Shown here piece after piece: positions 920 through 14,320 of a stretch of DNA of 64,000 nt (positions are counted from its first letter, which is position 1; each line of letters begins with the position of its first letter). Below the pieces are notes generated by a model. It had not been told where the DNA came from and made no database searches. It saw nothing but the letters and a program-made list of their open reading frames with translations. A program made the translations under genes and the position numbers. The stretch is from a bacterium (GTDB lineage: Bacteria; SZUA-182; DTGQ01): the NCBI GenBank assembly GCA_040755755.1, contig JBFLZW010000031.1:1-64000 (forward strand), in the 5' to 3' direction.

Positions 920-3900
920 TTATCCCTCCCCCCTTATGACCTTGAGCAATACCTCGTTAAGCTCCTTCATTTCAAAGGGCTTGGCAACGACGCCCTTGAA
1001 CCCGTACTGCTGATATTCCGATATTACCGGATCATTGAAATAACCGCTTGAAACAACCGCTTTCACGTCAGGATCGAGCTGCCGGAGTTTTTGCATGGCT
1101 TCCCGGCCCCCCATGCCTCCAGGAACAGTTAAATCCAGAATAACGGCATCGAAGCCCTGGCCTGCCTCTTTATGTTTTTTATAAAGCTCGACCGCCTCGG
1201 CACCATCCTGGGCAGATTCTACCTGGTATCCAAGATGAGTCAATATTCGCTCGGTCATCTTTCTGATCTGCACTTGATCATCCATAATCAAAACATTACC
1301 CTTGCCTGCAAGGGGCTTTTCCCTTTTGACTCCCTGCTGAACAGGGGTTTCTCTTTCCGAAGCGGGCAGATAGAAGGTGAAGGTGGTTCCAATGCCAGGG
1401 GTAGACTCCACCGTGATGTGCCCTTCATGCTTTTTGACAATGGAATAGGTAATCGCCAGGCCAAGCCCGCTCCCCTTCTCCTTGGTCGTAAAGAATGGGT
1501 CGAATATTTTCTGCACATGCTCTTGTGGGATTCCCCCTCCCTGATCTCTCATTGATATTTTTACATATCTTCCACTTTTCAGGAATCCGTTATCCTTTGA
1601 CTCAAGGGTGACATTCTCAGCATGCACCGTAATTGTTCCGCCTTCAGGCATAGCCTGATTGGCATTGATCATGATATTATTGATAACCTGGCTTATCTGG
1701 CCTTCATCGGCTTCGACACACCAAAGATCATCCGCTATGAATAATTCACATTTGACCTGAGAACCGCTCAAGGCAAGCATCTGCGCCTCCTGGAATAATT
1801 TTGTCAGAGCAATGCTCTTCTTGATTGGCTTGCCCCCCTTTGAGAAGGTAAGTAACTGCTGAGTTAATCGCTTGGCCTGTTTTGATGCCTTTTTTACCTC
1901 TTCTACTATTTCACCGATGTCTTTTCCCGTCAGCGCATTCAGCTCAATGAGAGAAACATTGCCTATGATAGCGGTCAGTAAGTTATTGAAGTCGTGAGCA
2001 ATACCTCCAGCAAGAATCCCCAGGGACTCCAGCTTCTGAATTTTTTGCATCTCCTCTTCCATTTTCTTCCGCTCGGTAATGTCACGGACCAGGGCGAGAA
2101 TGAGCTTGCGCCCATGATATTCAAGAGAACTCAACTTTATCTCAACAGGGTACGTTGATCCGTCCTTACGCCGGTGAACGCCGGAAAATGTTACCGGGAT
2201 TTTCTCGATCGCTTGTAAAATCGAAGGTATTTTCTCACGGTCATAATTCATCTCAAAATCTGCAACCGTCATATTCAAAAGCTCTGTACGGGTATATCCC
2301 AAACTGTCACAGACCCGTTGATTTGCGTTGATGATCCTGCCCTTTGTATCATGCACAAAAACCATGTCAGGGGCCTGTTCAATCAGCGCTTGCATGAAAC
2401 GCTCCTGGTCAACAAGGTTCTTTACCAAATGAGCATTCTCTATTGAAACAGCCGCCTGGACTGCAAAAGACTTCATGAGATTCAGTGCTTCCTGGCTAAA
2501 AATTCCACCCGCCAGCGAATTATCCAGATAAATCATACCCAGGCACTTGCCTTGTGCTCTCAAAGGGATGCAGAGTGCCTCCTTAATTCCATAATTTCTC
2601 AGTTCCCGCGATATCCCCTCTCCCTGCCCGTCGCAGTGACCCTGCGGCTCTGGCAGAGCGGATCCTTCCTGAGCGGCGATTACCGCTTCCTGACTTTTTT
2701 CAACAGCGTGGATCATCTCAAGGCTTATTCGGTAGCTGTCATACGCAAAGCTCTGCTCGACAATATCTTTTTTCATCCCCCGGACCACCGCGGGCCGTAA
2801 ACGATTATCTTCCCTGCCGTAAAGAAACAATGCTCCTCTTTCCGCACCGGTTGCCTTGAGAGCGTAATCCATTACCCTGTCCAGTAATTCTTCCAGGTTA
2901 AAAATAGAACCTACAGCCTCGGTCATTGACAGGAGAGATTCCAGGTAACGCTTTTGGGTGAGGGTTTCACAGGATTCCAGGTCTTTTTCCGCTCTCCCTG
3001 TCCCATCAAGTAATTTATTGGTCCACGCCAGATCACCCTGTGCATCCGTCCGGATGAATAATTCCCTGGCTTCAAGAAGATATTCATACGCCCTGGAATC
3101 CCTGGAGTTATCCTGAAGCAGAAGCGAAGCCTCCTGGAGAAGTATATGCCCGAGGCGATAGGTATCTTCAGTATGCTCTCGTAAAAATTTTATCCCCTTT
3201 TCCCAGAGTTTCTTCGCCTTTTCCTTGTTCCCGCTCAACCAATAATACGTTCCATTAACTTGACAGGCCCATCCGAAAATATACGGGAACCTTTTCCCCC
3301 ACCGCATCGATTGCCTGCAATACCAGGCACCTTTGGGGAGGCATTTCTTTCTTTCCTCAATCGATAAGGCCGGAGTATATAAGATCTTTCTCAGGTAAAC
3401 CTCTGCTCCCATCGTGAACATATCCAAAAAATAGCATCCCGTATGGTAGCGGAAATAATAATCCCTCGATTTTTCTATGGCATCTATGGCCTTGTCATGT
3501 TCCTCTCTTCTTGAATAAGCGAAAGCCAATACCGATAAGGCAAATCCTGCCACAAAGTGATCTGCGGTTTTCTCCAGCAGCTCTATTGATTTTTGCAGAT
3601 CATCGATGATTTGATCATCTACCTTCCCAAGACGGGAGAATACTCTTCCCTTCGTAACCAAAGCCCAGCCGAGGGCCTGCATAACTTTGGCTTCCTGCAT
3701 GGCCCTTACAAACTCTTCATTATCCCGGATATTCTCCTGGAAGCTTCTTCCGAGGAGACAATTATGGTGATCTCTGAAAAAGTAACCCATCCCCAGTTCC
3801 CAGTATTCACCCAGCTTTTTCAGCAAATCGATCGATTCCTGTGCATATTCGCGGGCTTCTCCCGGTCTATTTGATATAAATAAAGGCATACTGAAATAGC

Positions 3901-6889
3901 AGTAGCCCCGTCCCTCCTGGATCCTGTCACCTATCCTTCTGGCCATCTCTATTCCTAACCTTCCATCCCTGAAGGCGCGGGATAGCCAGGGGAATATGGT
4001 TAATGTGAAAGCAGGGGGCCCGGTTACATAAAGGTGGGCTAATTCTGTGCAGGGACCTATCTTCTTCTCGGTAAAATTGAGTGCTTTTATATAGAAGTAA
4101 AACATCCTGTCCATATCCGAGAAGTAGTAAATATAGGCCAATCTCATAAAAATACGCGAGATGATTAAGTTTTTCTGATCATTGCAGTAATTTCTCCGGA
4201 TAAAAACCTTGGGGAACCAGGTGTGCGCCATCTGGATAAGAAATTCCCCTGCCAGCCCCGCCATTACCCCGGCCTGGGTTCGAGGAACACTGAGGTTCAA
4301 CATCTTCAAAGCACTCACCAGTGACTCTATCGCTTCCTCTACCTCTCCCTTTTCCCATAACGTATTCCCGATCTTATAGAGCAACTGGGCGCGATGCAGT
4401 TTATCCGATGCGGGTACAAGGACTTCACAGATTCTCAGTGCTTCCAGCGATTCAGTAAACCTCCCGGTGAGCCGGTAAATTTCGCCAAGGCTCTCCAGTA
4501 TTTCCGCATATTGAGGAGTTTTCGTTTTACCTTGTTTCTCAAGTATTCTTCTTGCGGTTGTATAAAGCTCTACGGCCTGATTATGAGCATACGATGCCCT
4601 GGCCTTATGCCCAGCTTGTATCGAATATGGCAAGGCCCTGTCCTCTATCTTTGCCTGGGTAAAATGATAGGCCAATGCGTACAGGAAAGACTCACTGTCT
4701 TTACTTTCCCTCTCAAAATACTCCCCTATGAGCCGGTGAACAGGAATCCTGTCCTCCTCTTTCAACCTCTGATAAAATGCCTCCCGTATTCGGTCATGGA
4801 CAAAACAGATATTCTCTCTCCTGCTGATATCTCCCATCACCAACTGTCTCTTGATCCCCTCCTCTATGGCTGACAAGAGTACTTCTGGTGCCTGATGAGA
4901 GATTCTCATCAGGATTTCAAATTGTATCTCTCTTCCCATTACCGCGGCATACGAGAGAATTTCCCGGTTTTCGGCCGATAGCTCCTGTGTTCGTTTGAGC
5001 ACTACCTCGACAACGCTCTCAGGCGTGATGGCCTTTATGCCTCGCGATGCATCATAGGAATAATGATTATCCTTCCGGTAGACTATTCCCTCTTCAACCA
5101 AATAGTGCAGTGTTTCAACGAGAAAGAAGGGGTTCCCCCGGGATTTTTGATATATGTCATCAGCCAGGGGGGAAATGGTGTCTTCGTCCTCGGTCAGTAT
5201 TTGTGAGATGATCTTCCTGGTATCTTCAATTCCAAGGTTTTCCAGGTGAATCTCGGAAGGGGGTGTTCCACCTATTTCGAGTTTCTCCACTGTTTGCCGC
5301 AAAGGATGGCTCTCTCCTAACTCGGTGTCCCTGAAGCCCCCTATGATCAGGAGTGGATAAGAGCCTGCTTTTTCAGCGATTCTTCCGAAAAGCTCGATGC
5401 TCCCTTCATCCGCCCACTGTAAGTCATCGAAAAAAAGTATCACCGGAATTTCCGGAGTTCCCAGGTTTACGATGAAGTTAGTCACCGTGATCAGGAACCT
5501 GGTTCGCTCTTTCTCCGTTTCAAGCTCTGCCAGTCTGCCTGATTCGCCTGTCAACTCGGTCATTTCCGGGGCTATTTTTACTATTTCACCTGCCAGGTCT
5601 CCTAAAGTATCTTTGATTCTTTTTCTTAAGACCTCCTGTTCTTCACTGCATCTGCGCTTGAGCTTCTCAAGATAGGCTCTGATTATTTCGCTGAAGATTT
5701 TATACGGGGTCTGGAATTCAAATTGATTACACTTGCCTCCGGCAAATATTCCCCTGATACTCTGGACATGGCCAGCCGCCTCATCCACCAGCTTGCTCTT
5801 GCCTACTCCTGCTTCTCCATAAACGAGAATCAGTGCTCCTTTTGACTCTCTGGTATTCTCGATACAGACTTTGAGCTGATGAAGCTCTTTTTCTCTGCCA
5901 AAAAGCCGGGTGGAATAGGTGATTTCCCGGACACGATCCTGAAGAGCAATGGGAAAATCTATCCTTCCCCCCTGTTTCCGGTAAGCTTTGTATTTATCCA
6001 AATCAGCAATCAGGCCGGAAAGACTTTGATATCTGTCTTGTGGCTCTTTAGCGATTAACCGCAGGATGATGCGATCGAGCACCTCCGGAACAGCCTTATT
6101 GATTGTGCCTGGAGGCTCAGGCCGTTGAGCGATATGCTGGTAGACTAAAGCCGAAACATCCTGGGCTTTGTAGGGGAGCTCGCCGGTGACAAGCCGGTAG
6201 AATAATATTCCAATCGAGTAAATGTCTGTCCGCTCATCGATCGGCCTTCGCAAAATACCGCTGGCTTCAGGAGACAGATACCCAAAGATCGTCTGTATTG
6301 TGCCTGCTCCTGCTACCAGGGTCAGATCCAGAAGCGAGCTGTAGCCAAAATTGGTTACCTTAACGTATGGTATGGTATCCGTTGCAGCATCAGGCGGCTC
6401 TCCATCCTGAAAAACCTGCGAAGATACCAGGATATTGTCCGGGTTGATTCTCCCGTGAATAGTACCTTTTTGATGACAAAGACTTAAGCATGAGGAAAGC
6501 TGAAGGATCATCTCTACCGCCCGGTCGACTGCTATCGGTTGAGCGAGATATTGTGAAAGAGGCTGCCCAGGGAAATTTTCCGTTACGGTATAGTATCTCC
6601 CTTCGAATTCTCCGACGGCATATATTTTCAGGAGGTTCCTATGGTCTGCTTTTGAAATCGTCTCCAATCTCCTCTTAAAATGGAGCTGCGAAGCGAGGGG
6701 TAACTTTTTAACCTCTTCCTTGAATATATGTATTATGACCCGGCGGTCACTTTTCTGGTCAATAGCTGTATAGTCCTCAGCCAGAGAGCTGGAGCCTATG
6801 TGTTCCCGTATCTTATAGCGGGAGGCGATTACCCTGTTTATCATGCCATTGCCAAAAGTGTTCATATCCTGACCCCTGGTGTCTGTCAC
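920..6889 (-). CDS. Pseudokinase-AAA ATPase-TPR-GAF-PAS hybrid histidine kinase
   Basis: This 1,989-residue multidomain sensor has, in order: a Ser/Thr kinase fold (about 25-300), a PknK/MalT-like ATPase with Walker A GEAGVGKS at 358-365 and Walker B ILFFDD, a long helical TPR region, GAF (about 1330-1490), PAS (about 1500-1610), a histidine kinase with phospho-acceptor motif IAHDFNN near 1631, a HATPase domain with DQGGGIP and GSGLGLAI, and a C-terminal receiver with acceptor Asp in VILDLT near 1918. The kinase fold lacks its catalytic residues: the VAIK Lys is His54, the HRD motif reads HGR at 145-147, and DFG reads NFG at 180-182; the glycine loop is also degenerate. The structural motifs SPE and DIYSIGILF remain. 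The first start is GTG at 6889; ATG at 6865 with an AGGGG upstream is an alternative. The histidine kinase and receiver look active. It stands alone, with no adjacent regulator. Confidence 0.93.
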
Positions 6890-7481: not shown

Positions 7482-10400
7482 CTACATCCCATCGCACAGC
7501 GGCCCGGTGCACCATGTTCCATCGAACACTGACCTGCGGCCACTCGCCCCTGGCCATAGAGACTGGATTCGGTCCGGCCACACCACAAACTGGATGGTAT
7601 CGGTACCGAAAAAGGTGCATTCCGTGCCTTTGTACCGGAAGGAGCCTGTCACCTCGAATTGGGTATCGAGCGGCAGCGTTTTGATATCGGCTCTCTGGAA
7701 CTCGCAGACAGCCCTTTGTTCTGAGGGCTGGTAGTTGATGCCAAGATGCGGAGCTCCATCAGCTACTGCATCATACACGGTCGAGGTATCGTATGGCGGG
7801 GGAAGGGTCAGGGAGACGGTAAATGTGCCGGGAAAGGCCCGGAGAATTTCAGGTTTGATGGTAATCTGATTTCCGCTCAGTTTGAGGGCCACCTCAAAAT
7901 TTACCGTTTCTTTCTTCACGTTGCCGCTCCTATCGGTGACTGTCAGAGTAACCGTATTTTCTCCGGCCAATTCTGCCAGGGGAAGGAGAATGGGTGAGCC
8001 TGCGGTAATATCGACTGGCTTATCCCTGTTGTTGGAAAGCTCCACCTTGACCGTCGGGGCAGGATCGCAGGTATCGCTTGCCGTGTAGTGTATTCTCATG
8101 ACCTGGGTGGTGTCATAGGGAGGATTTTCGCCAAGGGTCAGGGTTGCCAGCGGGGTTGCGGTATCCTGGACAATCACCCTGAAGGTGCAGGTTCCGGTGT
8201 TGCCCGCAGAATCCGTGGCCCTCACTTTAACGGTTGTTGTCCCCGGGGAGAACTCGGTGCCTGATTCGGGATCACAGACTATTACCGGCTGGGGATCGGC
8301 ATTGTCTGAGGCTGTAGCCGTAAAATACACTCTGGTCTTTGGGCCTGTGGCTGCAACGGTCATATCGGAAGGGCAGTTGACCTGGGGGGCTGTGGTGTCC
8401 CCGACCGTCACCTGAAAAGAGCAGGTCCCGACATTCCCTGAAGCATCCGTGGCTGTCACCCTGACGGTCGTTGTTCCCGAAGGGAACTCGGTGCCTGGCC
8501 TGGGGGCGTAGGTTATCACCGGATTACGGTCCGCGTTATCCGTGGCCGTGGCCGTGAAATATACTCTGGCCCCACCATTGCCGGTGCTGGCCGCAACGGT
8601 CATGTTGGCCGGACAGGTTATTACCGGAGGGGTCGTGTCCTTTACCACTACGATGAAGGTGCATTCACTGGAATTGCCCGCCGAGTCAACAGCCGTCACC
8701 CTGACCGGCGTCGATCCTGCCGGAAATTCAGAGCCTGGTCTGTGGTCGTAGGATATTATCGGACTGTCATCCGCATTGTCGGTGGCCGTAGCGGTGAAAT
8801 TCACCCTGGTTGTACCTCCTGTGGCCGGGGCCACAATCTGATCAGGGCAGGTGATTCTGGGAGGCTCGGTATCCCTGACAGTGACCTGAAAGGTGCACTC
8901 ATCGTAATTGCCCGAACCGTCGTTGACCTTTACCCTGACCCTGGTCGTTCCTACAGGGAATTCTGATCCCGGCTCATGGTCATAGACTATCCTCGGAGCC
9001 GGGTCCACATCGTCGATGGCCCTGGCGGTAAAATCCACCCTGGTTCTGCTGCCGGTGGCTGAAACGACCTTATCGGACGGGCACAGGGCCCTCGGAGGAT
9101 CCTCATCCCTGACTGTGACATGGAAGGTGCACTCATCGCCATTACCTGAAGCGTCAGTGGCCTTCACCGTGACCGGAGTCGTTCCCAGGAAAAATTCAGA
9201 GCCGGGCACATGGTCATAGACAATGGTCAGTCTCGAGTCCACAGCGTCAGTGGCCCTGGCGGAAAAATCGACCCTGGTCTTCCATCCGGTGGCTGGAACT
9301 GTCATATCTTCCGGACAGGTGACCAGCGGGGAACCGGAGTCCCGTACGTTCACGCTCATATAACTGGTACTGGAGTTGCCCGCTGCATCAGTGGCCGTTA
9401 TCTTGACCGTGGTTATGCCGGGGGGAAATTCAGAGCCGGATTCATGGTCACAGACTATTTTCGGATTTTGATCCACGTTATCCGTAGCCGTGACCGTAAA
9501 ATTCACTCTGGTCAGCGGACCTGAAGCGATGGCATCTACCGTGGACGGACAGTTGATCACCGGCGGCCTGGTGTCTTTTACTTCAACTTCAAATGAGCAG
9601 TCGCTGGAATTACCCGCTGCGTCAGTGGCCGTTACCTTGACTTGCCGTGTTCCCACAGGAAATTCGGAACCGGACTCAGGATTACAGACTATTTTCGGAT
9701 TTGTATCCACATTGTCCGTGGCCGTGATGGTATAACTCACTCTGGTCATACTGTCCTCTGCCGGAATGACCAGATTACGGGAGCACTGGATCACCGGCGG
9801 GGTGGTATCCCGTACGGTTACCCGAAAGGAGCAGGTGCTGGAGTTACCCGAATCGTCGGTGGCCGTCACCCTGACATCGGTGTCACCCAGAGGGAATTCA
9901 GAGCCGGGCTCATGGTCACAGAGCACATTTGGGTCCTGATCCACGATATCACTGGCTGTGGCCGTGAAATATACCCTGGTCTTCTCCCCCAGGGCTGAAA
10001 CGGTCATATCACCCGGACAGGTGATCCGGGGCGCTTCTGTATCCTTCACCTGCACCGTGAAAGAGCAGGTACTGGACTTGCCTGCCGAGTCGGTTGCCGT
10101 CACCGTAACCGGGGTTGTGCCCAGGGGGAATTCCGATCCCGGCTCAGGATCATAGGCTATCAGCGGCATGGGACCGCTGGTATCAGGGACTGGAGCCGAA
10201 TAATACACCCTGGTCTTTGAGCCTGTGGCTGAAACGGTCATATCGGATGGGCAGGTGATTGCAGGAGGCTTATCCGTGACCGTTACCGTAAAGGTGTAGG
10301 TACTGATGATGTTGCCCGATGCATCTTTGACTGTCACCGTAACCGGGGTTGTGCCCACGGGAAATTCGAATCCCGGCGCAGGATCATAGGTTATCAGCGG

Positions 10401-13400
10401 CATGGGGCCGCCGGTGTCAGGGACTGTGACCGAATAATACACCCTGGTCTTTGAGCCTGTAGCTGAAACGGTCATATCGGATGGGAAGGTGATTGCAGAA
10501 GGCTTATCTATGACCGTTACCGTAAAGGTGCAGGTACTGATGATGCTGCCCGATGCATCTTTGACCGTCACCTTGACCGGCGTTGTACCCACGGGAAATT
10601 CTGATCCCGGCTCATGATCGTAGGTGATTATTATGGATGCAGGGTCTACGCAGTTTGCAGCCGTAGCCTGATAGTTTACTCTGGTCATTTTGCCGGTAGC
10701 GGAAACGGTTATATCAGAGGGGCAGATTACCGGACTCAAGAGGCTGCCTGCAGTCACCTTAAAGGAGCAGGGGCTCGAATTGCCTGATGCGTCCGTGGCC
10801 ACTACCCTGACCGTGGTTGTTTTCCCGGCAGGAAATTCAGAGCCTGGCGCAGGATCGTAGGTTATCTTGGGGTTGGGGTCTACCGTGTCAATGGCCGTGG
10901 CCACAAAATTAACCCTGGTCATACAGCCTGTGGCCGGAACAATCTGATCGGGCGGACAGGAAACAACGGGCGGATCGGTATCCTTGACTATTACCGAAAA
11001 ATCGCAGGTGCTGGAATTACCCGAAGCATCTGTGGCTGTAACCTTGACCATAGTCTTTCCAACAGGAAATTCAGAACCCGGATTGTGATCATAGACGATC
11101 ATCGGCTGAGGATCTATATCATCGGAGGCAGTGGCGGTAAATGACACTTTGGTCATTCTGCCGGTGGCTGCAACAGTCAGCTCCCCTGGACAGGTCAGTC
11201 GGGGCGGTTCGGTATCCTTTCGGTCATCGGCGAAGGCATAAACCATGCCGCTTAAATCCACGGCATACACCCTGCCTCCGGCGGCAATGGCCGGTGAGGA
11301 ATCAACGCGGCTGCCAGCCTTGTAGCTCCACTTCAGGCTGCCGTCCCGGGAGTCGAGAGCATAGATATGGCTGTCCAGGCTGCCGATATAGATTGTTCCA
11401 TCCGCACCGAGGGCCGGTGAGGAGTAGATTCCTCCGCCGGTCTGATAGCTCCACTTCAGGCTGCCGTCATGGGTATTCAGGGCATAGATCCGTCCATCCA
11501 GGCTGCCGATATACAGCCCGCCGTCAGCGCCAAGGGCCGGGGAGGAATAGACCCCGCCGTCGGTCTGATACTTCCATTTCAGGCTGCCGTCATAGGTGTT
11601 CAGAGCGTAGATACTGCCGTCCAGACTGCCGATATAAACCGCACCGTCGGCACCAAGGGCCGGGGAAGAGTAGATGCGCTCTCCGGTCTGGTAACTCCAT
11701 TGCTGGCTCCCATCCTGGGAAGAAAAGGCGTAGATCCTTCCATCCCCGCTTCCAACATACACCAGGCCGTCAGACCCTATGGCCGGGGAAGAATAAATCC
11801 CGCCGCCGGTTTTTGCGCTCCATTTCAGACTGCCGTCAGGTTTGAGCGCATATACCTTACTGTCGAGCCCTGCAATGTAGACCGTGCCATCGAGCCCGAC
11901 AGCCGGAGAGGAATAAATCCAATTGCCGGTCTGATAACTCCACTTCAGAGTGCCATTCCAGGATTTGAGCGCATACACCACTCCGTCAAGACCTGCGGCA
12001 TAGAGGGTGCCATCGGCGGTAATGGCAGGCGTTGACCTGATCCGGCCCCCGGCCTGGTAGCTCCATTTCACACCGTGTCCCGCAGGATCAAGGGCATAAA
12101 TTTTGGAGTCATAGCTTCCGATATAGATTGTGCCATCCATACCGGTGACCGGCGATGCGTAAACTTCCCCTCCGACCTGGTATTTCCATTTCAGGGTGCT
12201 GGTTTGCGGACCGATCGAGGAGCTCTGGCCGGTATGCAGGGCATTGAGCCTCCAGCATGGCCAACTGCTGTCCGCCACCCCTTCCTCCGGAAAACCGAAG
12301 GCATAGATCCAGCCATCCAGACCGCCGAAGCAGACTGTGCCGTCAGCGCCGATCGCCGGTTGGGAATAGACCCCGCCCTCGGTTTTGTAGCTCCACTTCA
12401 GGCTGCCATCCTGGGCTTTCAGGGCATAGATCCGGCTGTCCAGGCTGCCGATGTAGACCGTGCCATCCGATCCTATGGCAGGTGAGGATCCGATTCCGGC
12501 CCCGGTTTTATAGCTCCATTTCTGACGCCCGTCAATGGAATTGAGGGCATAGATCCGGCCATCCAGACTGCCCACATAGATCGTGCCGTCATTGCCGATT
12601 GCCGGTGATCCGTAAATGTCATCAGCGGTCTGGAAATTCCACTTCGGCTGGCCGTTCTGAGGTTTCAGGGCATAGATCCGGCCATCCAGGCTGCCCACAT
12701 AGATTGTGCCGTCCGACCCGACAGCGGGGGAGGAATGAATCCAGTACCCTGTTTTATAACTCCACTTCAGGCTGCCGTCCCGGGCGTTCAGGGCATAGAC
12801 CTGCCCATCGAGACTGCCGATATAGATTGTGCTGCCGTCCGGCCCGACAGCGGGGGAGCAGTAAATATCATCCCCGGTCCTGAAGCTCCACTTCAGACTG
12901 CCATCCTGGGTCAAGGCGTAAAGGGAATTATCCAGGCTGCCGACATAGATTGTGCCGTCCGGCCCGACAGTCGGCGAGGAATAAATTTCATCAGCGGTCT
13001 GATAGCTCCACTTCAGGCTGCCATTCTGGGTCAAGGCATAGAGCCGGCCATCGAGACTGCCGACGTACAGCGTTCCATCCTGGCCAAGGGCGGGTGAGGA
13101 GTTTATGCTGTCTCCGGTTTCATAACTCCACTTCAGGCTGCCATTCTGAGACCGAAGGGCGCATATCTGTCCGTTATCGCTGCCGGCATAAACCGTGCCG
13201 TCAGCCCCTATGGCCGGTGAGGAGTAAATCCTCCCCCCCGCTGACCATTTCCACTTCAGGGCATTGGTTTGAGCCCCCAGAAACGGGCTCTGGCCGGTAT
13301 GTCTTGAATCATGCCCCTGGCAGGGCCAGGCATGCATGGCCACACCTCCCGGCTGAGCATCGGCAGCCCAGGCGTGGTGCACAGTCAGATAATATACCCC

Positions 13401-13493
13401 TCCTGCCAGCAGAACCACGAGAAAACACAAGATCAATTGCAAAGGAATAGAGCCCGGTCCACTTCTTTGAATGAAAAAAGACACTTTCTTCAT
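7482..13493 (-). CDS. Exported protein: two 8-bladed PQQ-type propellers plus 13 HYR repeats
   Basis: The 2,003-residue product starts at the ATG at 13493, preceded by GGAGGGGGGAGGTT; the frame stays open upstream, but that extension reads through repeat DNA. Residues 1-45 form a signal peptide (LILCFLVVLLAGGVYYL, then AWA). Next come two blocks of eight blades of about 40 residues, typified by SSPAIGADGTIYIGSLDG and ALNTHDGSLKWSYQTG. Each block opens with a similar header, WPCQGHDSRHTGQS and WPCWRLNALHTGQS, so the propeller was duplicated as a unit. About 13 HYR domains of roughly 80 residues follow (DTTPPVITCPANMTV, ATDNAD, GSEFPVGTTPVKVTATDASG). The C-terminal part is non-repetitive and no LPXTG or PEP-CTERM sorting signal is seen. 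PQQ-like propellers of this type usually bind proteins or polysaccharide, and HYR domains form adhesive stalks, so a surface adhesin role is inferred. Confidence 0.9.
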   Translation of the reverse strand: MKKVSFFIQRSGPGSIPLQLILCFLVVLLAGGVYYLTVHHAWAADAQPGGVAMHAWPCQGHDSRHTGQSPFLGAQTNALKWKWSAGGRIYSSPAIGADGTVYAGSDNGQICALRSQNGSLKWSYETGDSINSSPALGQDGTLYVGSLDGRLYALTQNGSLKWSYQTADEIYSSPTVGPDGTIYVGSLDNSLYALTQDGSLKWSFRTGDDIYCSPAVGPDGSTIYIGSLDGQVYALNARDGSLKWSYKTGYWIHSSPAVGSDGTIYVGSLDGRIYALKPQNGQPKWNFQTADDIYGSPAIGNDGTIYVGSLDGRIYALNSIDGRQKWSYKTGAGIGSSPAIGSDGTVYIGSLDSRIYALKAQDGSLKWSYKTEGGVYSQPAIGADGTVCFGGLDGWIYAFGFPEEGVADSSWPCWRLNALHTGQSSSIGPQTSTLKWKYQVGGEVYASPVTGMDGTIYIGSYDSKIYALDPAGHGVKWSYQAGGRIRSTPAITADGTLYAAGLDGVVYALKSWNGTLKWSYQTGNWIYSSPAVGLDGTVYIAGLDSKVYALKPDGSLKWSAKTGGGIYSSPAIGSDGLVYVGSGDGRIYAFSSQDGSQQWSYQTGERIYSSPALGADGAVYIGSLDGSIYALNTYDGSLKWKYQTDGGVYSSPALGADGGLYIGSLDGRIYALNTHDGSLKWSYQTGGGIYSSPALGADGTIYIGSLDSHIYALDSRDGSLKWSYKAGSRVDSSPAIAAGGRVYAVDLSGMVYAFADDRKDTEPPRLTCPGELTVAATGRMTKVSFTATASDDIDPQPMIVYDHNPGSEFPVGKTMVKVTATDASGNSSTCDFSVIVKDTDPPVVSCPPDQIVPATGCMTRVNFVATAIDTVDPNPKITYDPAPGSEFPAGKTTTVRVVATDASGNSSPCSFKVTAGSLLSPVICPSDITVSATGKMTRVNYQATAANCVDPASIIITYDHEPGSEFPVGTTPVKVTVKDASGSIISTCTFTVTVIDKPSAITFPSDMTVSATGSKTRVYYSVTVPDTGGPMPLITYDPAPGFEFPVGTTPVTVTVKDASGNIISTYTFTVTVTDKPPAITCPSDMTVSATGSKTRVYYSAPVPDTSGPMPLIAYDPEPGSEFPLGTTPVTVTATDSAGKSSTCSFTVQVKDTEAPRITCPGDMTVSALGEKTRVYFTATASDIVDQDPNVLCDHEPGSEFPLGDTDVRVTATDDSGNSSTCSFRVTVRDTTPPVIQCSRNLVIPAEDSMTRVSYTITATDNVDTNPKIVCNPESGSEFPVGTRQVKVTATDAAGNSSDCSFEVEVKDTRPPVINCPSTVDAIASGPLTRVNFTVTATDNVDQNPKIVCDHESGSEFPPGITTVKITATDAAGNSSTSYMSVNVRDSGSPLVTCPEDMTVPATGWKTRVDFSARATDAVDSRLTIVYDHVPGSEFFLGTTPVTVKATDASGNGDECTFHVTVRDEDPPRALCPSDKVVSATGSRTRVDFTARAIDDVDPAPRIVYDHEPGSEFPVGTTRVRVKVNDGSGNYDECTFQVTVRDTEPPRITCPDQIVAPATGGTTRVNFTATATDNADDSPIISYDHRPGSEFPAGSTPVRVTAVDSAGNSSECTFIVVVKDTTPPVITCPANMTVAASTGNGGARVYFTATATDNADRNPVITYAPRPGTEFPSGTTTVRVTATDASGNVGTCSFQVTVGDTTAPQVNCPSDMTVAATGPKTRVYFTATASDNADPQPVIVCDPESGTEFSPGTTTVKVRATDSAGNTGTCTFRVIVQDTATPLATLTLGENPPYDTTQVMRIHYTASDTCDPAPTVKVELSNNRDKPVDITAGSPILLPLAELAGENTVTLTVTDRSGNVKKETVNFEVALKLSGNQITIKPEILRAFPGTFTVSLTLPPPYDTSTVYDAVADGAPHLGINYQPSEQRAVCEFQRADIKTLPLDTQFEVTGSFRYKGTECTFFGTDTIQFVVWPDRIQSLWPGASGRRSVFDGTWCTGPLCDGM

Positions 13494-13530
13494 AACCTCC
13501 CCCCTCCTGGCTGTGATTATCCTGAGAAAA

Positions 13531-13560
13531 GTGGTCAGTGGCCAGTGGCCAGTGATCAGT
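13531..13560. repeat. ACTGACC heptamer repeat copy
   Basis: On the minus strand the sequence reads ACTGATCACTGGCCACTGGC and then CACTGACCACTT. It lies in the leader between the acyltransferase stop and the propeller gene start. The upstream extension of the propeller frame passes through it. Confidence 0.65.
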
Positions 13561-13603
13561 TTTTTCCTGACAACTGAAAATTGGTACCGGACAGCTTCTT
13601 TAT

Positions 13604-14320
13604 TCAAGATGAATAGTCCCTGACCACCCTGGCCGGGTTGCCACCGGCAATTACCAGAGATGGTACGCTTTTCATCACCACGCTTCCAGCCGCTATGACA
13701 CTTCCGCAGCCAATATGAGTGCCCGGCAGGATGATGCAATTGGCCCCAATCCAGACATTATCTTCGATGACAATAGGCCTGGGACTGCCGGTTGTATGGA
13801 TCCTGTTTTCAACCTGAGAGAAAGAAAGATCATGTCCGCTGGAATCAAATATCTGAGTATTGGCTGCTATCAGGCAACCCTGGCCGATACTGATCCTGCG
13901 GTGGGCATGAATGCATGTCCCGTGAATTCTCGTGTTTTTTCCGATGCTGATTTCAGCCCCCGGCCTGTCAGCGAAGAGTTTTACCGGAGAATGAAGATTA
14001 ATGTGGTATCCCCTGTTCCGCGAATTGAGCGTGACATCCTTCCCGATGGTTATCGATGCACCCCGGCTGATATCGATAAGGGGGAAACCTCTCACTATCA
14101 CTCTCCCCTCCATGTGCAGTCCCTTCTTACGGGCTATGCAGGCCGGGTATATGCACTCGCAAAGAATCTCGTCCCAGACCAGCCGGGGATGCATAAAGGA
14201 AAATTTCAATTGCCGGATAAGGTCCACACCCTGCCGTATCAGCCAAAGGGAAGTCCTCTCTCTGCCTGTCCCCAGATACAGCTCGGTATTTTCCCTCACC
14301 CTGAAGGATTCATCAGCCAT
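13604..14320 (-). CDS. Hexapeptide-repeat acyltransferase (WcaF/Maa-like)
   Basis: The 238-residue protein has a helical N-terminal 70 residues, then a left-handed beta-helix built from hexapeptide repeats such as ISIGKNTRIHGTC, ISIGQGCLIAANTQIF and VWIGANCIILPGTHIGCG. It ends VIAAGSVVMKSVPSLVIAGG and NPARVVR, the hallmark end of CoA-dependent sugar O-acetyltransferases. The catalytic His is probably in FDSSGHDLSF. The substrate is most likely a surface polysaccharide sugar. It lies about 110 bases upstream of the propeller/HYR gene on the same strand, so the two may share transcripts. The exact acyl donor and acceptor cannot be told from sequence. Confidence 0.85.
   Translation of the reverse strand: MADESFRVRENTELYLGTGRERTSLWLIRQGVDLIRQLKFSFMHPRLVWDEILCECIYPACIARKKGLHMEGRVIVRGFPLIDISRGASITIGKDVTLNSRNRGYHINLHSPVKLFADRPGAEISIGKNTRIHGTCIHAHRRISIGQGCLIAANTQIFDSSGHDLSFSQVENRIHTTGSPRPIVIEDNVWIGANCIILPGTHIGCGSVIAAGSVVMKSVPSLVIAGGNPARVVRDYSS

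Follow-up and report, generated by a model that had tools for sequence, protein, structure and literature searches.

A kinase-fold head without canonical catalytic residues on a predicted cytosolic hybrid histidine kinase

The window analysed here is a 64,000-nucleotide stretch of a bacterial contig (JBFLZW010000031.1, positions 1 to 64,000, assembly GCA_040755755.1), and it carries on its minus strand (6889..920, GTG start) the gene for a protein of 1989 amino acids (aa). Its domains mark it as a cytosolic hybrid histidine kinase with Pkinase-AAA(COG3899-type)-TPR-GAF architecture and a pseudokinase at its head. A first-pass annotation of the window, made from the letters alone, had placed the gene correctly at 920-6889 and called the head a dead kinase; alignment confirms a Hanks-type fold without the VAIK Lys, the HRD Asp and the DFG Asp. 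The head is rather likely to act as a non-catalytic docking or allosteric module that feeds the histidine kinase.

Catalytic residues and fold of the head

Aligned by HMMER to StkP of S. pneumoniae (E=2e-33), the head has His54 at the VAIK Lys, HGR at HRD and NFG at DFG, and the motif losses are placed alike by a wide set of relatives and by the nearest subfamily. The beta3 Lys has become His54, the HRD Asp Arg147 and the DFG Asp Asn180, so that the substitutions and numbering in the first-pass annotation are correct in all three alignments; beyond these, the alphaC Glu is replaced by Arg74 and the catalytic-loop Lys by Asn149. The glycine loop, also called degenerate earlier, reads IGSSSLA against (L/I)GEGGMS in relatives. 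Catalytic-loop Asn152 is retained, as is the scaffold of APE Glu, DxxxxG and alphaI-Arg. As aligned, the head lacks residues that canonical phosphotransfer needs.

The gene and the features of its head are as follows, with the basis of each in brackets:

920..6889, minus strand: whole gene, pseudokinase - AAA ATPase - TPR - GAF - PAS - HisKA - HATPase - receiver (Pfam)
6026..6817, minus strand: pseudokinase domain, aa 25-288 (PF00069 in genome search and Pfam; AlphaFold2; PknB match)
6779..6799, minus strand: degenerate glycine loop IGSSSLA, aa 31-37 (alignment to relatives)
6728..6730, minus strand: His54 (CAT) in place of the beta3 Lys (alignments, codon)
6668..6670, minus strand: Arg74 (AGA) in place of the alphaC Glu (alignments, codon)
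6434..6457, minus strand: catalytic loop HGRINPDN versus HRDxKPxN, aa 145-152 (alignments, codons)
6344..6352, minus strand: NFG in the place of DFG, aa 180-182 (alignments, codon)

That the kinase fold itself is kept, as the annotation had held, is borne out in three ways. The Pkinase profile of Pfam scores 83 bits over aa 25-288 (cut-off 31.7); an AlphaFold2 model of the head, built from 51 aligned rows, reaches a predicted local distance difference test score (pLDDT) of 90.3 and a predicted template-modelling score of 0.90 (single-sequence AlphaFold gave pLDDT 35); and a Foldseek search with this model returns M. tuberculosis PknB as the top PDB matches (E 1e-21). By sequence and model, the head has kept the kinase fold but not the canonical catalytic residues.

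Downstream chain and nearest relatives

The ATPase-TPR-GAF-PAS-histidine kinase-receiver chain had been described as intact, and all downstream catalytic residues examined are indeed present. The Walker A motif of the ATPase (GEAGVGKS, 358-365) and its Walker B motif (ILFFDD) are unaltered, and the ATPase/TPR part keeps 52/60 conserved positions. His1632, the N and G boxes, Asp1919 and Lys1970 align with nine histidine kinase-receiver paralogues encoded in the same genome, with which the tail (aa ~1492-1987) shares about 49-60% identity. Strong receiver matches in this genome number at least 48. The downstream domains are:

5342..5908, minus strand: AAA_16/STAND-like ATPase, aa 328-516 (Pfam and alignment)
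4304..4585, minus strand: TPR repeats, aa 769-862 (Pfam)
2441..2899, minus strand: GAF, aa 1331-1483 (Pfam)
2072..2371, minus strand: PAS, aa 1507-1606 (Pfam)
1835..2014, minus strand: HisKA, aa 1626-1685, with the phospho-acceptor His1632 in AHDFNN (Pfam and alignment)
1358..1708, minus strand: HATPase_c, aa 1728-1844, N, G1 and G2 boxes intact (Pfam and alignment)
950..1294, minus strand: receiver (Response_reg), aa 1866-1980, acidic pair, Asp1919 and Lys1970 intact (Pfam and alignment)

From the kinase through the TPR to the GAF domain (aa 19-1547), homology is continuous with proteins of Clostridia and Spirochaetota at 28-29% identity, and the nearest heads, from metagenome-assembled genomes of these groups, share 33-38% over the kinase or the kinase plus ATPase. 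Since these homologues bear differing outputs and the tail has its paralogues at home, the protein, on homology, joins a Clostridia/Spirochaetota-family head to a tail from the genome's own histidine-kinase family. We considered a recent fusion and rejected it: a difference in composition was looked for and not seen, the GC contents of head and tail being so alike (47.5 and 47.1%, both under most neighbouring genes) that nothing points to a recent join.

The closest heads, by comparison and tree, are L141, L060, L061 and L062, and a tree of ATPase and TPR only puts L236 and L271 closest (100% support); the kinase is intact in all of them. These members of the Spirochaetota/Clostridia head subfamily have the kinase-to-GAF homology in common with the window protein, with HisKA_3, SpoIIE, GGDEF or HTH outputs, whereas the latter combines a dead head with a PAS-HisKA-HATPase-REC output. 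We found no orthologue in the other eight genomes of its own phylum-level group (9 in total), and none with the same substitutions in 9 same-group, 386 domain-wide and 393 Spirochaetes-relative-phylum genomes; viral contigs, when queried, gave five distant relatives only. The annotation had proposed asking whether close homologues share the three substitutions, and the answer is no: because the nearest homologues have intact kinases, head inactivation is, by this comparison, lineage-specific and not family-wide.

Only two more Pkinase matches were found in the genome by profile search (C31:110799 and C37:13700), the first with its catalytic residues intact. The 3.4 Mb genome of L061 (G396) holds about 14 full or partial kinase-AAA-TPR-GAF members, a lineage-specific expansion in which every member with the kinase region in view has an intact kinase.

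Proposed role of the inactivated head

The distribution of losses within the head is of particular interest. We took the 62 kinase positions with a conservation of 90% or more among 41 subfamily members whose kinase is intact, and counted as cleft positions the glycine loop, VAIK, the alphaC Glu, the catalytic loop, DFG and the activation-segment GT. The head keeps 39/62; losses fall on 12/17 cleft positions versus 11/45 elsewhere (Fisher p=0.0013), and 28/34 conserved C-lobe positions outside the cleft are kept. Identity to intact members is 33.5% for the kinase and 31.8% for the ATPase part, so the kinase domain resembles intact relatives no less than the ATPase does and is not eroding faster. 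This pattern suggests that catalysis was lost and the fold retained, and it speaks against decay.

With losses focused on the cleft, the fold kept and the tail intact, the most plausible reading is the one first proposed, in which the dead head serves as a non-catalytic regulatory module acting on the histidine kinase. COG3899/AAA_16 ATPases that carry TPRs are similar to STAND-type switches, and GAF and PAS domains relay signals to histidine kinases. The head could sense a partner, or a ligand in its rebuilt, more basic cleft, and its state would determine which nucleotide state the STAND-like ATPase/TPR unit adopts; this unit, via GAF and PAS, may in turn control autophosphorylation at His1632, from which the phosphoryl group would pass to Asp1919 and a downstream response regulator. 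Also in favour of an allosteric module are the persistence of independent dead heads, seen in a proteobacterial clade with 99% support, and the repeated losses in the head subfamily with their link to output type, described below. The nearest functional parallel may be Candida Chk1, where removal of the kinase and ATPase domains gives a phenotype resembling full deletion with the histidine kinase still in place (PMC9069115).

Several points weigh against a regulatory role. In Chk1 the deletion took out the ATPase as well as the kinase domain; outside the cleft, the N-lobe keeps only 6/11 conserved positions; an orthologue sharing these substitutions, on which nonsynonymous and synonymous rates could be compared, was looked for and not found; and the association of kinase state with output type has no significance in an independent-pairs test on the tree, which offers too few pairs.

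The head could be a decaying remnant, its activity unneeded once joined to the histidine-kinase tail and the domain drifting without a function of its own. The loss of 5/11 conserved non-cleft N-lobe positions, the long branch and the status of the protein as a singleton in its phylum-level group would all fit, but we consider this unlikely, given losses that focus on the cleft and spare the C-lobe, a kinase no more diverged than the ATPase, a frame without stop or frameshift and a model that folds with high confidence. To a new job for the cleft we give the same low probability. It might bind a Mg2+-free nucleotide or an anionic ligand via His54, Arg74 and Arg147, or carry out a different reaction, as in SelO (AMPylation) and SidJ (glutamylation). 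Two acidic positions in or near the cleft have become Arg and a Lys has become His, and DLHK pseudokinases are reported to contact nucleotide phosphates with arginines (PMC12599244); SelO, however, retains the beta3 Lys and DFG Asp (PMC12599244, Table 1) that the window head lacks, and a single sequence defines no conserved alternative residue set. A SelO-type AMPylating pseudokinase was rejected as a candidate, His54 and Asn180 standing in place of those two residues.

Less probable still is a head that remains a Ser/Thr kinase through compensation: residual activity occurs in some "dead" kinases elsewhere, and Asn152 and the scaffold are kept, but the losses take in the Lys, the alphaC Glu, the metal-binding Asp and the two residues of the catalytic loop, with the base Asp turned into Arg. 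Finally, although the assembly is fragmented (88 contigs) and offers a single copy, an assembly or sequencing artefact has next to no likelihood, and the refutation by sequencing error that the annotation had allowed for fails, because the five substituted codons (CAT, AGA, AGA, AAC and AAT) lie at least nine base changes (2+2+3+1+1) away from the ancestral residues, inside a frame open over all 1989 codons and with equal GC content in head and tail.

Related architectures and output types

By its domains, the window protein belongs to the already described COG3899-linked CP1-type kind. CP1 bacterial kinases are all linked to COG3899 and about 40% of them are pseudokinases, with motif losses that vary and with several at once in some (O'Boyle et al. 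2025; PMC12599244). In common with them it has a cytosolic N-terminal kinase fold and a COG3899-type ATPase, often accompanied by GAF/PAS: here AAA_16 comes directly after the kinase and is alignable with cyanobacterial members (the COG3899 link is judged from this match and alignment, not from a COG3899 profile), GAF and PAS are present, and no transmembrane-like stretch was found in the protein (top 19-residue hydropathy 1.41). It may differ in its placement: in the tree the head, with a long end branch, lies on a separate Clostridia/Spirochaetota-centred branch with the signature PE[AQ][TSC]G...DERSD, outside the cyanobacterial/proteobacterial CP1 core.

The same kinase - ATPase - GAF - (PAS) - histidine kinase layout is found in the cyanobacterial cbSTKIII/dual kinases (HstK, Pkn40/41; PMC2176072) and in NCBI entries named "trifunctional serine/threonine-protein kinase/ATP-binding protein/sensor histidine kinase", at about 26-31% identity over kinase and ATPase; a literature search for experimental work on "trifunctional" kinases gave nothing relevant. 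Most cyanobacterial members retain the Lys, Asp and Asp, of which the window protein has none, and their post-APE signature, TGRMNRxxDYRSD, differs from its own. Fungal hybrids, Chk1 of Candida and Mak2/Mak3 of S. pombe, also combine a Ser/Thr-kinase-like domain, ATPase, GAF, histidine kinase and receiver (PMC9069115, PMC5383687); they are eukaryotic, and are likened here by domain layout, not by alignment. The annotation had set the dead head against relatives carrying an N-terminal kinase. Their layout is indeed known, but the contrast was too strong, because pseudokinase heads are common in this architecture, as the CP1 share and a proteobacterial clade of dead heads show.

In that clade of alpha-/betaproteobacterial and Pseudomonas "trifunctional" kinases, the DFG Asp is lost throughout and the beta3 Lys in most; a beta3 K->V change with DFG->GFG is common to Microvirga, Bradyrhizobium, Rhizobium and Pseudomonas sequences (clade support 99%). 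Overall, 22/129 sampled proteins are without one or more of the three residues, in a sample biased towards similarity to the window protein, and at least nine changes of kinase state fall on a 60-row tree of the wider family. Both the beta3 Lys and the DFG Asp are missing in L030, L031, L036, L038, L039, L055, L069, L126, L127 and L131, mostly alphaproteobacterial and Pseudomonas proteins; some are annotated "trifunctional serine/threonine-protein kinase", a name that is probably wrong as to kinase activity. In L035 (4486-9725 of a Pseudoalteromonas plasmid), a kinase-like head without the DFG Asp and the ATPase-containing part occupy two adjacent genes.

Among 58 proteins of the head subfamily, with at least eight kinase losses inferred on the tree, intact and dead heads number 24/1 with SpoIIE output, 7/2 with GGDEF, 3/0 with HisKA_3, 1/1 with HisKA, 4/11 with AraC and 0/1 with LuxR (3/0 where no output was seen). 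The only dead head on a HisKA output is that of the window protein, which is among the most completely inactivated members found in the subfamily. The kinase is intact in 4/16 proteins with DNA-binding outputs, and in 24/25 with SpoIIE versus 15/30 with other outputs (Fisher p=0.0002, an exploratory value that ignores kinship, as the association was spotted on 52 proteins with six added later, and several AraC proteins come from one genome). These counts suggest that kinase heads have been inactivated repeatedly, for the most part in proteins with an output other than a Ser/Thr phosphatase, and they fit kinase activity being dispensable where the output does not depend on Ser/Thr phosphorylation. 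We offer only tentatively, and with doubt, the broader idea that across the Pkinase-AAA-TPR-GAF family the head may serve primarily as an allosteric switch and only secondarily as an enzyme, with catalysis selected where an opposing SpoIIE phosphatase lies in the same chain and repeatedly lost with a DNA-binding, cyclase or histidine kinase output.

Pseudokinases abound in bacteria, and hardly any has been assigned a function. The present family amounts to a natural experiment, with the same head, live or dead, placed on different outputs. If kinase loss does follow output type, the dead fold would exert allosteric control of its own output, and one could predict which family proteins annotated "serine/threonine-protein kinase" are not kinases.

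In genomes of the phylum of L061, L228, L229, L230, L231, L261, L262 and L275-L279 have the layout pseudokinase - AAA - TPR - (GAF) - AraC-type HTH and are apparently one-component transcription regulators with dead kinase heads; several are tandem copies in one genome (G508). Independent losses are seen in L259 (Lys -> Thr, DFG Asp -> Asn; LuxR-type HTH output) and in L266 (HRD Asp -> Gly, DFG Asp -> Asn), the only dead SpoIIE head in the set. Elsewhere in the window, 7482-13739 on the minus strand encodes a very large protein with a PQQ beta-propeller, about 13 HYR domains and a likely signal peptide; its translation probably begins at an ATG some 80 codons into the listed open reading frame.

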